Positions 36,915 to 41,100 of a stretch of DNA of 64,000 nt are shown here, one piece after another. Each line of letters starts with the position of its first letter. The stretch's first letter is position 1. The notes below the pieces were generated by a model that was given only the letters and a program-made list of their open reading frames with translations, searched no databases and was not told where the DNA came from. The translations under genes were made by a program, and so were the position numbers. The stretch is from contig NZ_PTJD01000005.1 in the NCBI RefSeq assembly GCF_002934625.1, forward strand, positions 186,001 to 250,000, written 5' to 3'. The DNA is from Kineococcus xinjiangensis. GTDB lineage: Bacteria > Actinomycetota > Actinomycetes > Actinomycetales > Kineococcaceae.

Positions 36915-37805
36915 TCAGCGCAGCAGGCGCAGCGTGCGGGAGCTGACCTGCACGCTGAGGCGCTGCCCCCACCCCAGGGTCAGCCGGTCCTCCTCCAGCC
37001 CGTCGCCGAAGACGACCAGCTCCTCGCTGCGGGCCTCGACCAGGAGCGGCTCGTCGCCTGCGGCCACGGTCCCCGCGGTCAGGGCGGTGCCCGTCGCGGG
37101 CGAGGGCCACGCCTCCCGCACGAACCAGGCCAGCGAGGCGTCCGTGGGCGCAGGCAGGGTGCAGCCCGCGACCTGGCGGGCCAGCGAGCCGCACCAGCCC
37201 GTGGCGCCGGTGCCGGTGCCCACGAGCACCCCGCTGGAGGCCTGCACCTCCGAGCGCCCGCCCGCGGTGAGGGCGTAGCGGCTGGTCTGGTGGCTGCGGT
37301 GCCCGGCGAAGACCTCGTTGAGCGCATGCAGCTCCTGGCCGTCGTCGGTGCGCGCGCACACCATGGTGCGCCGCTCCACGTGCGCGTCGGCGGCGAGGGC
37401 GTGCTGCAGCAGGCTCGCCGCGGCCTGCGGGCGGTGCCGGACGAGCACCCCGGGGTTGCGGCCGGGGTCGGGGTCGACGCCGAGCACCACCTGGCCGTCC
37501 AGGTACTTCGCCACGTTGGCGACGAGGCCGTCCTGCCCCACGACCACGACGACGTCCTCGGGGGCGAAGAGGAACCGCGGCAGGTCCTCCCGCTCCACGC
37601 CGCCGCGGCGCCAGTCCAGCGGCACGGCGGCGGCCACCGCGGTCAGCGCCGCGTGCTGGCGCTCCGCCGCGGCGTCCAGCTCGGCCAGGGTGCGCCCGCG
37701 GGTGCGGAGGAAGAACTCCGCCTGCCCGCGGGTGCCGTGGCGGGCGAGCAGGCCGTCCAGCTCGGTGCGCCGGTGCACCAGGACGACGCGCGGTGCGAGG
37801 CTCAT
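36915..37805 (-). CDS. NAD-kinase-like protein with altered GGDG motif
   Basis: Encodes 296 aa. It follows the NAD kinase fold: VVVVVGQDGLVANVAKYLDG where GGDG is usual (here G90-Q-D-G93), a central LHALNEVFAGHRSHQTSRY in the place of the NE motif, and SGVLVGTGTGATGWCGSLAR for the T-G-S-T loop. The Gly-to-Gln change in the phosphate-binding loop may alter ATP or polyphosphate use. The ATG overlaps the stop of the SPFH gene (ATGA at 37802-37805). A true NAD kinase is expected elsewhere in the genome, so this may act on an NAD-like nucleotide or sense it. Confidence 0.78.
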   Translation of the reverse strand: MSLAPRVVLVHRRTELDGLLARHGTRGQAEFFLRTRGRTLAELDAAAERQHAALTAVAAAVPLDWRRGGVEREDLPRFLFAPEDVVVVVGQDGLVANVAKYLDGQVVLGVDPDPGRNPGVLVRHRPQAAASLLQHALAADAHVERRTMVCARTDDGQELHALNEVFAGHRSHQTSRYALTAGGRSEVQASSGVLVGTGTGATGWCGSLARQVAGCTLPAPTDASLAWFVREAWPSPATGTALTAGTVAAGDEPLLVEARSEELVVFGDGLEEDRLTLGWGQRLSVQVSSRTLRLLR

Positions 37806-38809
37806 GCCCGCTCCGGTGCCGCGCCGAGCCGGGCCAGTGCGCCGGTGAGCACGTCGGGGGTCAGCACGAGGCTGCCGATCGCGGGCAGGTTGCCGGCGAG
37901 CTCCCGCACGGCCAGCGCGAGCAGCAGCTCCGGGGCGGCGTCCGCGTGCGCGGCGATCCGGGCGGCCTCGGCCGCGGCGTCCGCCTCGCCGGTCAGGCGC
38001 CGGGCGGTGGCGCGGGCGGCGGCGAGGCGCTCCTCCCGCTCGGCCTCCGCGGTGGTGCGCACCGTGGAGGCGGCGGCCGCCTCCTCCGCGACGCGCCGCT
38101 CGTTGGCGCCGCGCTGGGCGACGAGCTGCTCCTCCCTGCGGGCCAGCTCGATCTGGTTCTGCAGCTCGTTCTCGCCGATGGCGCGCTCCCGCTCCACAGC
38201 CAGGGCGCGGCGCGCGTAGGTGGCGCGGTCGGCCTCCTCCTGCAGCTGCTCGCGGGTGGGGGTGCGCAGCGCCTTCTCCACCTCGGGGGTGGGGCGCACG
38301 GCGACGACCCGGACGTCGAGGACGGCCACGCCGGTCTGGGCGAGGCGGGTGTCGGCGCCGAGGCCGGTGCCGATCTGCTCGCGGGCCAGGGCGACGCCGG
38401 TGACGAGGACGTCGCGCAGGGGGCGGCGGGCGAGGGCGTCGAGGACGTGCTGCTGCGCGGTCTCGGTCAGCAGGGTCGCCAGCTGTTCCAGCGGTGCGCC
38501 GCGCCAGCGGCCGGTGGCGGGGTCGAGGGAGAAGTCCAGTCGGGACGCGGCGAGGTCGGGCTGGACGATGCGGAAGGTGACCGTGGCCTGGACGGTGACG
38601 TCCTGGAAGTCGGCGGTGCGGGCGTGGAACAGCAGGGGCAGTTCGCGGTCGTCCACCGGCACCTCGGAGAGGACGGCGGTGAGGGGGCGGAACCAGAAGG
38701 ACTGCGCCACTCCGGAGTGCACGCGCCGGCCCCGGCGCGTGTGCTCGACGTGGGCGGTGGGGGTTCCGCGCAGGTGGCGCAGGAACGGGTAGCGGGTGAT
38801 GTCGGCCAT
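37802..38809 (-). CDS. SPFH/band-7 domain protein
   Basis: Encodes 335 aa. The band-7 domain spans about residues 25-200 (VPVDDRELPLLFHARTADFQDVTVQATVTFRI, then GVAVLDVRVVAVRPTPEVEKAL), then a long Ala/Glu/Arg-rich coiled coil (200-300) typical of prohibitin/flotillin-like oligomers. There is no clear N-terminal membrane helix, so it may be cytoplasmic or peripherally bound. ATG 38809 is preceded by GAGGAG on the minus strand. It is the first gene of a two-gene operon with the NAD-kinase-like gene and diverges from the Nudix gene; paired operators lie between. Confidence 0.85.
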   Translation of the reverse strand: MADITRYPFLRHLRGTPTAHVEHTRRGRRVHSGVAQSFWFRPLTAVLSEVPVDDRELPLLFHARTADFQDVTVQATVTFRIVQPDLAASRLDFSLDPATGRWRGAPLEQLATLLTETAQQHVLDALARRPLRDVLVTGVALAREQIGTGLGADTRLAQTGVAVLDVRVVAVRPTPEVEKALRTPTREQLQEEADRATYARRALAVERERAIGENELQNQIELARREEQLVAQRGANERRVAEEAAAASTVRTTAEAEREERLAAARATARRLTGEADAAAEAARIAAHADAAPELLLALAVRELAGNLPAIGSLVLTPDVLTGALARLGAAPERA

Positions 38810-38824
38810 CGGGGCCCTCCTCTT

Positions 38825-38839
38825 TCGTCGAGATGACGA
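38825..38839. promoter_or_regulatory. Operator copy 1, TCGTC-N5-GACGA
   Basis: Inverted repeat TCGTC (38825-38829) and GACGA (38835-38839). It overlaps the minus-strand -10 box TATCGT (38841-38836) of the SPFH gene. Confidence 0.65.
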
Positions 38840-38865
38840 TAAGCAGGCCGGTCCGTTGTCGTCAA
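38836..38865 (-). promoter_or_regulatory. Promoter of the SPFH operon
   Basis: On the minus strand TTGACG (38865-38860) and TATCGT (38841-38836) are separated by 18 nt. Operator copy 2 covers the -35 and copy 1 the -10. Confidence 0.6.
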
Positions 38866-38878
38866 CCCGACGACAACG
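38854..38878. promoter_or_regulatory. Operator copy 2, 10-bp perfect inverted repeat
   Basis: CGTTGTCGTC (38854-38863), spacer AACCC, GACGACAACG (38869-38878). The core TCGTC-N5-GACGA is the same as copy 1, with centres 34 bp apart. It lies directly upstream of the Nudix -10 box. Confidence 0.75.
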
Positions 38879-38881
38879 GGC

Positions 38882-38887
38882 TAGGGT
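38882..38887 (+). promoter_or_regulatory. Leaderless -10 box of the Nudix regulator
   Basis: TAGGGT, 6 nt before GTG 38894 and 3 nt after operator copy 2. Confidence 0.6.
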
Positions 38888-38893
38888 TGCGGA

Positions 38894-39613
38894 GTGCCGC
38901 AGCCCTACGACCCCGCCGCCTTCCCGTCCGTCGCGGTCACCGTCGACCTCGTCGTCCTCACCGTGCGGGCGGGTCGCCTCGCCGTGCTCCTCGTCGAACG
39001 CGGCGAGGCCCCCCACCGCGGCCGCCTCGCGCTGCCCGGCGGGTTCCTGCGCCCCGACGAGGACCTGCCGGCCGCCGCGGCGCGCGAACTCGCCGAGGAG
39101 ACCGGACTGCCGCACGACTGCGTGCACCTCGAGCAGCTCGCCACCTACGGCACCCCCGGCCGCGACCCCCGCATGCGTGTCGTGACCATCTGCTACCTCG
39201 CCCTGGCCCCCGACCTGCCCAGTCCCGTCGCCGGCACCGACGCCGCCTCGGCCTCCTTCGTCCCCGTCGACGACGCCCTCGCCGCGGCCCTGGCCTTCGA
39301 CCACGACCGGCTGCTGCGCGACGGGCTCGAGCGCGCCCGCGCGAAGCTGGAGTACACCCCCCTCGCGGCGGCCTTCTGCCCCGAGGAGTTCACCGTCGCG
39401 GAACTGCGCCGCGTCTACGAGGCGGTGTGGGGCACCCCGCTGGACCCGCGCAACTTCCACCGCAAGGTCACCGGCGCGGACGGCTTCCTCGAACCCACCG
39501 GGCACAGCACCACCCGCGACGGCGGCCGGCCCGCCCAGCTCTACCGGCGCGGGCCCGCCCGCACCCTGCACCCGTCGATGCCGCGCAGCACCGGGGATCC
39601 CCACCCGGGCTGA
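38894..39613 (+). CDS. Nudix-domain transcriptional regulator (NrtR-like)
   Basis: Encodes 239 aa. The N-terminal Nudix domain has a complete Nudix box (G-x5-E-x7-R-E-L-x-E-E-x-G-L, about residues 49-71). The C-terminal part (about 150-225: YTPLAAAFCPEEFTVAELRRVYEAV, NFHRKV) is the winged helix of NrtR-type regulators of NAD metabolism, which bind ADP-ribose or NAD-derived ligands. Many NrtR proteins lost Nudix catalysis; here the box is intact, so it may be both enzyme and regulator. The leaderless GTG is adjacent to paired operators shared with the SPFH/NAD-kinase-like operon, its likely targets. Confidence 0.85.
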   Translation: MPQPYDPAAFPSVAVTVDLVVLTVRAGRLAVLLVERGEAPHRGRLALPGGFLRPDEDLPAAAARELAEETGLPHDCVHLEQLATYGTPGRDPRMRVVTICYLALAPDLPSPVAGTDAASASFVPVDDALAAALAFDHDRLLRDGLERARAKLEYTPLAAAFCPEEFTVAELRRVYEAVWGTPLDPRNFHRKVTGADGFLEPTGHSTTRDGGRPAQLYRRGPARTLHPSMPRSTGDPHPG

Positions 39614-39784: not shown

Positions 39785-40612
39785 GTGCCCCGCACCGTGG
39801 AACCCCGCTTCGCCCGCACCTGGCTGCTCGTGCCCGCCACCGCCCCCGACCGCTTCGACGCGGCGCTGGCCTCGCGCACCGACGCGGTCGTGCTCGACCT
39901 CGAGGACGCGGTCGACCCCAGCCGCAAGGGATCCGCGCGCGAGGACGTCCTGCGCTGGCTGCGCGACAGCGGCCAGGGCTGGGTGCGCATCAACGACCGC
40001 ACCTCCCCGTTCTGGGCCGAGGACGTCGCCGGCCTGCGCGACGCCCCCGGCCTGACCGGCGTGATGCTCGCCAAGACCGAGGCCGGCGAGCAGGTGGAGG
40101 AGACCGCCGCCGCCCTCGGCGGGAGCACGCCCGTCGTCGCCCTCGTGGAGTCCGCCCTCGGCATCGAGGACGCCCGCGACATCGCCACCGCCCGCGGCGT
40201 CTTCCGCCTCGCCTTCGGCTCCGGCGACTACCGCCGCGACACCGGTGCCAGCGCCGACGCCCTCGCCATGGCCTACCCCCGCAGCCGCCTCGTCACCGCC
40301 AGCCGCATCGGCGGCCTGCCCGGTCCCGTCGACGGTCCCACCGTCGGCGGCGGACTGCCCGAGCTGCGCGAGCAGTCCGCCGTGGCCGTCTCCCTCGGCA
40401 TGACCGGCAAGCTCTGCCTCGACCTCGCGCAGGCACCCGTCATCAACGAGGTCATGAGCCCCACCGGCACCGACGCCGCGTGGGCGCGCGACGTCCTGCG
40501 CGCCTTCGAGGAGTCCGGCGGCATCGTCCGCGACGGCAGCGACCTGCCCCGCATCGGCCGCGCCCGGCGGATCACGATGCTCGCGGAGGCCTTCGGCGTC
40601 GAGCCGGTCTGA
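39785..40612 (+). CDS. CitE-like lyase (HpcH/HpaI aldolase family)
   Basis: Encodes 275 aa. TIM-barrel features of the CitE family: RTWLLVPATAPDRFDAAL, DAVVLDLEDAVDP (metal-binding acidic residues), WVRINDR, VMLAKTEAGEQV, ALVESALGIEDARDIA (catalytic Glu region) and FGSGDYRRD. Such proteins cleave or make malyl/citramalyl/citryl-CoA; the exact substrate is uncertain. It stands alone without CitD/CitF partners. GTG 39785 is preceded by GGAAGGA, and the tandem repeat at 39637 lies in its upstream region. Confidence 0.85.
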   Translation: MPRTVEPRFARTWLLVPATAPDRFDAALASRTDAVVLDLEDAVDPSRKGSAREDVLRWLRDSGQGWVRINDRTSPFWAEDVAGLRDAPGLTGVMLAKTEAGEQVEETAAALGGSTPVVALVESALGIEDARDIATARGVFRLAFGSGDYRRDTGASADALAMAYPRSRLVTASRIGGLPGPVDGPTVGGGLPELREQSAVAVSLGMTGKLCLDLAQAPVINEVMSPTGTDAAWARDVLRAFEESGGIVRDGSDLPRIGRARRITMLAEAFGVEPV

Positions 40613-40630
40613 CCCGCGCCTCGCCGCTCC

Positions 40631-40664
40631 CGCGCCGGGCCCCTCAGGTGGGGGCCCCGGCGCG
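40631..40664. terminator. Hairpin between convergent CitE-like and DUF1330 genes
   Basis: CGCGCCGGGCCCC (40631-40643) pairs with GGGGCCCCGGCGCG (within 40650-40664) with one bulge. It overlaps the DUF1330 stop codon. Confidence 0.45.
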
Positions 40665-40988
40665 CATCGCGGCCGCCAGGTGCGCCGCCTCGTAGCCGGG
40701 CGCCACCCCTTCGACGACGAGGACGTCCGCCCGCAGGTGCCGCGTCCGCAGCGGCAGGATCGCCCGGTAGCCGGGGGAGGAGTACCACGCCCGCGCGGCG
40801 GCGGCGTCGGGGAACTCCAGCAGGACCAGCACCCCGGGCCACTCGCCCTCCAGGACCTGCGGGGGCGCCCCGTGGACGAGGAAGCGCCCGCCGTGCGGGT
40901 CGAGGGTGGCCTGGATGCGGTCCAGGTACTCGGCGATGTCGGGGTGGGCGGACGTGGTGTGCAGGTGGCCGAGGGCATAGGCGGTCAC
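40644..40988 (-). CDS. DUF1330 family protein
   Basis: Encodes 114 aa. The ferredoxin-like dimeric barrel pattern is seen in YALGHLHTTSAHPDIAEYL, GGRFLVHGAPPQVLEGEWPG and LLEFPDAAAARAWYSSPGY, all typical of DUF1330. The function of the family is unknown. GTG 40988 follows AGGAGA with 7-nt spacing. It diverges from the XRE-type regulator, which may control it. Confidence 0.82.
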   Translation of the reverse strand: MTAYALGHLHTTSAHPDIAEYLDRIQATLDPHGGRFLVHGAPPQVLEGEWPGVLVLLEFPDAAAARAWYSSPGYRAILPLRTRHLRADVLVVEGVAPGYEAAHLAAAMRAGAPT

Positions 40989-41100
40989 GGCGGGTCTCCT
41001 CGATCTCGTGCGCGTGTCGAGCTGTCGACGCCACGCTCGCGCGGCGCGGTGGCCGCGGTCGATGACCTCCGAGGTCATGGCCGCGGCGGCGGCGGGTGCC

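Follow-up and report, generated by a model that had tools for sequence, protein, structure and literature searches.

An NrtR-type regulator and two palindromic operators beside an SPFH/NAD-kinase-like operon in Kineococcus xinjiangensis

Comparative analysis of a 64,000-nucleotide stretch of the Kineococcus xinjiangensis genome (contig NZ_PTJD01000005.1, positions 186,001 to 250,000; hereafter the window) indicates that an NrtR-type repressor probably acts through two palindromic operators both on its own gene and on a divergent operon encoding an SPFH (Band 7) protein and a protein resembling kinases of nicotinamide adenine dinucleotide (NAD). The operators, their embedding in the SPFH promoter, the pairing of regulator with operator and the existence of further targets among NAD genes appear well supported by sequence comparison; the function of the SPFH/kinase-like pair is one that we infer.

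The palindromes lie in the 84 bp intergenic gap (38810-38893) between the SPFH gene (37802-38809, minus strand) and the nrtR-type gene (38894-39613, plus strand, GTG start). A preliminary description of this DNA had placed two copies of an inverted repeat here, and a pattern search confirmed TCGTC-N5-GACGA at 38825-38839 and 38859-38873, 34 bp apart and both inside the gap. The SPFH-proximal operator, O1 (38822-38842), is a 21 bp imperfect palindrome, CTTTCGTC-GAGAT-GACGATAA, that overlaps the SPFH -10 element, and the distal operator, O2 (38856-38876), TTGTCGTC-AACCC-GACGACAA, contains the -35 element. The arms of O2 reach 11 bp each (38853-38879), and O2 ends 17 bp ahead of the nrtR GTG. The 15 bp pattern by itself is a weak signal: its exact form occurs at 3 places in the window and at 18 genome-wide (8 for the reversed pattern), and with two mismatches allowed it occurs at 52 places in the window, compared with 59 expected. 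The 21 bp form, TTRTCGTC-N5-GACGAYAA, is found within 0-2 mismatches only at the two gap sites of the 4.6 Mb genome, and at exactly 3 mismatches at 16 further places, about twice the reversed-pattern control (8). Additional copies, for which the preliminary description had proposed a search, did not materialize: within 2 mismatches the 21 bp pattern gave no strong site beyond the gap pair, and none of the further places in the 4.6 Mb was convincing.

Conservation was assessed in 112 loci of the NAD-kinase-like gene, comprising 20 relatives, the window's own locus, 80 named genome loci (the top 80 of 570) and 11 loci from a plasmid collection (picked from 57 records); these loci are not independent of one another, and two of them (L039 and L094) probably represent the same genome. 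In 112/112 loci, all of them found through the NAD-kinase-like gene, an SPFH gene with the same orientation lies immediately upstream, and the pair overlaps by 4 nt in 67 of the 102 loci tallied. A divergent NrtR-type Nudix gene is present in 91/112, and two of the 21 loci without it end at contig edges (L035, L100). Among 102 actinobacterial gaps, a count that drops L100 for its cut SPFH gene, at least one operator site occurs in 99, with two sites in 87, one in 12 and none in 3, compared with a site in 3 of 2040 dinucleotide-shuffled gaps. Of the gap sites, 48 served to train the scoring matrix; the gaps gave 186 sites in all, and 122 of these differ from every training site. The operators are thus kept in related genomes, the check that the preliminary description had named. 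Because they are conserved across gaps and the 21 bp form occurs only here in the genome, the palindromes are more than chance; that they are accidental repeats of a GC-rich genome is hardly credible, even though the 15 bp core with two mismatches stands at chance level in the window, and the conservation refutes it. The operator changes with lineage: Proteus and Acinetobacter gaps carry TGTC-N5-GACA-type sites 35 bp apart, and no clear counterpart was seen in the Rhizobium, Cupriavidus and Methylomonas gaps.

The position of the operators relative to the SPFH promoter is similarly conserved. On the SPFH strand of the window, TTGACG (38860-38865, within O2) and TTATCG (38837-38842, within O1; TATCGT when shifted by one base) form predicted -35 and -10 boxes with a 17 bp spacer, in agreement with the earlier proposal that one repeat covers each box, and this geometry recurs in 71 of the 71 site pairs spaced at 33-36 bp. 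The other 16 of the 87 pairs are spaced at 27 or 44-53 bp. Within the 71, the distal site reads TTGACG in 69 and TTGACA in 2, and the proximal site starts with TTATCGT in 62, ATATCGT in 6 and other forms in 3. Distal sites have TTGAC without exception in all 87 pairs, while the bases that replace this TT differ among proximal sites. Since both promoter boxes lie inside operators, the operator spacing appears to be set by the SPFH promoter. Two operators enclosing predicted -35 and -10 boxes are the layout of a repressor, and with the promoter built into the operator pair, bound dimers would shut out the polymerase. On the opposite strand a candidate -10-like element, TAGGGT (38882-38887, called by eye), lies 6 bp ahead of the nrtR GTG; TAnGCT, which resembles it, precedes the regulator start in some family relatives, and the nrtR message is possibly leaderless.

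The regulator has an N-terminal NUDIX domain (PF00293, E 2.5e-21) and a C-terminal NrtR winged helix (NrtR_WHD, PF21906, 63 bits against a cut-off of 27; the related AraR_C also matched), so that Pfam bears out the NrtR layout first suggested from the open reading frame. Because it falls below the cut-off of the NCBIfam equivalog NF050029 (148.9 bits against 400), it belongs to the wider NrtR family rather than to that equivalog. It shares with Shewanella oneidensis NrtR, Mycobacterium smegmatis NrtR (MsNrtR) and Corynebacterium glutamicum NdnR the NUDIX plus winged helix architecture, palindromic operators and a layout for autoregulation and, in some relatives, NAD genes as targets. It differs from known NrtRs in its intact Nudix box and in its main target, the SPFH and NAD-kinase-like genes, and its operator, TTRTCGTC-N5-GACGAYAA, differs from the mycobacterial one given in PMC6800001, GTTTTCGA-N7-TCGAAAAC.

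Comparison supports the suggestion that this Nudix protein binds the palindromes: the operator mostly stands beside the regulator gene and, where that gene has moved, at its own start, so that the NrtR-type regulator is very probably the binder. We looked for the NrtR winged helix in 16 genomes and scanned the DNA upstream of each match for the operator. In Streptomyces and Plantactinospora, operators remain ahead of the SPFH gene with no NrtR adjacent; when free NrtR genes are ranked by score against the module regulator, the top 10 (350 or above, a cut chosen once the list was known) all carry the operator at their own start. They come from 7 Streptomyces genomes, 2 Plantactinospora genomes and Allorhizocola, with one gene per genome. 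Lower-scoring free NrtRs in these 16 genomes lack it; among them, 5 of 8 Streptomyces NrtR paralogues have TTATAGTC or TTATGGTC plus GACTATTA, and 3 do not. A different transcription factor could bind the palindromes, leaving the Nudix gene a mere neighbour, and some loci do have operators without an adjacent regulator. We regard this as very unlikely, given that an NrtR gene elsewhere in the genome carries this operator in 7/7 Streptomyces and 2/2 Plantactinospora genomes searched (two Streptomycetaceae plasmid loci lie outside this search), and that where no NrtR of the operator-bearing kind was found, the site before SPFH is missing (Hamadaea, G162) or altered (Nocardia rosealba, G156), although Hamadaea still has one strong site elsewhere (L162). 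At the N. rosealba locus (L073) the palindrome 35 bp ahead of SPFH, TTATGGTCACTATGACCATAA, is perfect but differs in its core, and no close NrtR was found in that genome. A tree of 78 NrtRs (47 subsampled neighbour rows and 31 free regulators) groups like labels much more tightly than shuffled labels, with 7 changes needed for neighbours, 3 for operator-bearing free regulators and 6 for operator-less ones. One clade (100/99) unites the seven operator-bearing regulators of Streptomyces and another (99/88) 12 of the 21 operator-less NrtRs, with those of Actinomadura and a few others falling among the module regulators.

Further targets were sought by running the 48-site sequence model on 80 genome handles, in sets of 20 genomes (20 of the 21 order genomes with the NAD-kinase-like gene; G093 was left out), 14 genomes plus 2 plasmids, and 47 genomes (one shared), the latter two sets being drawn from the 80 named loci and the last run with stricter filters. 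Most matches are the module itself. Of the off-module places we read all 7 in the 20-genome set (E<=0.3), all 13 in the 14-genome set (E<=1) and 2 of 3 in the 47-genome set (E<=0.3), leaving out one place of the 47-genome set and eight at E 0.3-1 of the 20-genome set. Ten of these 22 places lie before NAD genes, 3 before nrtR and 9 by other or unassigned genes. The NAD genes concerned are pncB (5 genomes, four of one family and one Streptomyces), pnuC (1 genome), and nadA and nadE (two Actinomadura genomes), so that 8 of the 80 genome handles have candidate operators ahead of NAD genes, which bears out, at the level of comparison, the NAD-linked regulation first proposed from the window. The place read at G000:C1:127284 had no site over 15. 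In the source genome, a second NrtR heads a nadA-nadB-nadC cluster (L047:7530-12182), and the 18 kb stretch around it holds no site of the module motif scoring at least 15 (one strand, symmetrised matrix). The nine places by other or unassigned genes include a strong operator-like site in the start region of a Streptomyces SIR2_2-domain gene, a possible NAD consumer (L146, G155:C48:11388, position 1501). Two very strong operator-like sites were seen in Actinoplanes regularis by genes without a Pfam match (L195:3487, L196:3396).

Judged by the motif GX5EX7RExxEExG, 83 of 84 actinobacterial neighbours and 10/10 operator-bearing distant regulators (93/94 together) have an intact Nudix box, compared with 0/7 proteobacterial neighbours; as the pattern is also present in 13 of 21 NrtRs that lack this operator, the intact box is not unique to the module. 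PMC4666351 describes NAD-type NrtRs with an impaired box, and PMC6800001 describes MsNrtR as inactive and released from DNA by ADP-ribose; in both accounts ADP-ribose undoes DNA binding by NrtRs. Set against those impaired or inactive proteins, the intact box raises the possibility that this NrtR is a bifunctional enzyme and repressor that hydrolyses its inducer, ADP-ribose, so that the switch resets itself. We hold this idea tentatively and with some doubt, since operator-less NrtRs pass the same pattern and an intact box does not prove activity.

Several observations weigh against an NrtR-operator circuit of this kind, or against parts of it. The Allorhizocola locus (G160, L096) has no operator before SPFH, though its genome encodes an operator-bearing NrtR (L189). 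Two Actinomadura genomes with the operator at SPFH and at NAD genes yielded no operator near the 4 of 5 NrtR matches that were fetched. Module regulators do not form one clade in the NrtR tree, and the SPFH/kinase-like pair occurs without operators, or without a regulator in reach, at L046 and in Allorhizocola (L096), Hamadaea (L103), Roseomonas (L131) and Treponema (L135). The 9 of 22 off-module sites by other or unassigned genes include one SIR2-like (L146), one DUF3788 and one TPR gene; among these nine, L202 has no site >15 on re-scan, and L158 and L200 are low (20.8 and 16.2). The 21 bp pattern search found no NAD gene with an operator in the source genome. Finally, C. glutamicum NdnR is reported to respond to NAD and not to ADP-ribose (PMC6800001 and PMC4666351), so the ligand here may differ from ADP-ribose.

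The second gene of the operon (36915-37805, minus strand) lies downstream of SPFH, overlaps it by 4 nt, and encodes the NAD-kinase-like protein, with motifs GQDGLVAN, LNE and TGTGATGW. Its predicted structure (pLDDT 92.8) matches NAD kinases over its whole length, the best match being mitochondrial NADK2 (Z 25.1, rmsd 2.9, 276 aligned residues, 21% identity, for the predicted model). Predicted fold, the Asp of the GGDG-type motif, and the NE/D and glycine-rich motifs are shared with NADK2; GQDGLVAN in place of GGDG, the conserved VREAWPS and F-DG-E-D motifs and the low identity (about 21%) set it apart. The GGDG position reads GQDG in 106/112 loci and GPDG in 6/112, so that the preliminary description of a changed NAD kinase fits, with the fold as predicted. 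D92 (the Asp of this motif), the following GLVAN, N163, SSG and the TGW tryptophan are present in 112/112, and position 164, beside N163, is E in 100 and D in 12. The window protein has no Pfam match, its NCBIfam NAD kinase matches are weak (best 23.4 bits against a cut-off of 316), and 8 of 46 relatives give weak matches to Pfam NAD_kinase; records name these proteins 'hypothetical protein', 'sugar kinase' or, in two cases, 'ATP-NAD kinase PpnK-type protein'. By sequence they are a constrained, separate subfamily. The altered GGDG motif, the poor family matches and the presence of a separate, regular NADK elsewhere in the source genome would suit a sensor that binds NAD(P) or another nucleotide, or a pseudoenzyme, regulating the SPFH oligomer instead of acting as a kinase. 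We consider this possible but lean away from it: unlike a decayed enzyme, the protein retains the motif Asp, the NE/ND asparagine and most of its glycine-rich stretch.

The SPFH protein carries a Band 7 domain (PF01145, 47.9 bits against a cut-off of 23.6), and its predicted structure combines that domain with a C-terminal helix of more than 100 residues, at a pTM of only 0.54. Foldseek matches of the model include HflK/C (best), erlin, stomatin, flotillin and vault, and the Band 7 domain and long helix are shared with HflK/C, stomatin, erlin, flotillin and major vault protein. The preliminary description had called it a membrane-raft-type protein, which now looks doubtful: no 19-residue hydropathy window reaches 1.6 in any of 38 SPFH rows, a test that does not cover hairpin or lipid anchors. 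The lack of a transmembrane-scale hydrophobic stretch in these 38 rows and the pairing with the kinase-like gene (112/112) distinguish it from those SPFH proteins. An oligomer that is soluble or peripheral seems no less probable than a raft protein.

Taken stepwise, the mechanism we propose would begin with an NrtR-type repressor binding O1 and O2 in the gap that separates nrtR from the SPFH/NAD-kinase-like operon. Dimers on both operators would exclude RNA polymerase from the SPFH promoter, and O2, close to the nrtR start, would allow autorepression. At high NAD turnover a breakdown product of NAD, most likely ADP-ribose, would enter the Nudix domain and the DNA would be released; the operon would then supply the SPFH protein and the NADK-fold enzyme, presumably translationally coupled and acting jointly on the NAD pool. 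The most likely reaction would be phosphorylation of NAD(H) or of an NAD-derived nucleotide, with the SPFH oligomer as a scaffold, and we put this reaction forward as plausible yet short of probable. A bolder version seems unlikely: in it, a spreading NAD-homeostasis module would comprise a new class of NADK-fold enzyme (GQDG type), a soluble SPFH cage, similar to vault or HflK/C, that encloses or controls this enzyme, and a self-resetting NrtR that switches the module on and both senses and destroys ADP-ribose.

The NAD-kinase-like gene occurs in 21 of 149 genomes of the order and 12 of 296 of the phylum (source genome counted in both), and in 57 records of a plasmid collection, 42 of them Rhizobium and two, from Proteus, chromosome-sized. 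The divergent Nudix gene is kept in Rhizobium, Proteus, Providencia, Acinetobacter, Methylomonas and Cupriavidus copies. In Proteus mirabilis (L132) and Acinetobacter lwoffii (L134, with a partial SPFH match) the module adjoins tet(J) and tet(H), respectively. Links to phages, viruses and defence were considered and set aside: tblastn of the kinase-like protein gave no match in phage records, none of 113 viral-contig stretches that fitted a pattern was confirmed, and PADLOC returned a single weak match, to the Nudix protein (E 0.0085). In the window, an HpcH/HpaI aldolase-type gene and a DUF1330 gene adjoin nrtR (39785-41078). Our literature search found no paper joining SPFH with NAD kinase, or SPFH with Nudix and sugar kinase, although the founding NrtR papers may hold an earlier mention.

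The regulatory context offers a first functional handle, NAD turnover, on the SPFH/kinase-like pair of Actinobacteria, Rhizobium plasmids, and Proteus, Acinetobacter and Treponema records, and the pair may be a testable new part of bacterial NAD management. If its Nudix box is active, the regulator would be an NAD-type NrtR that removes its own signal.
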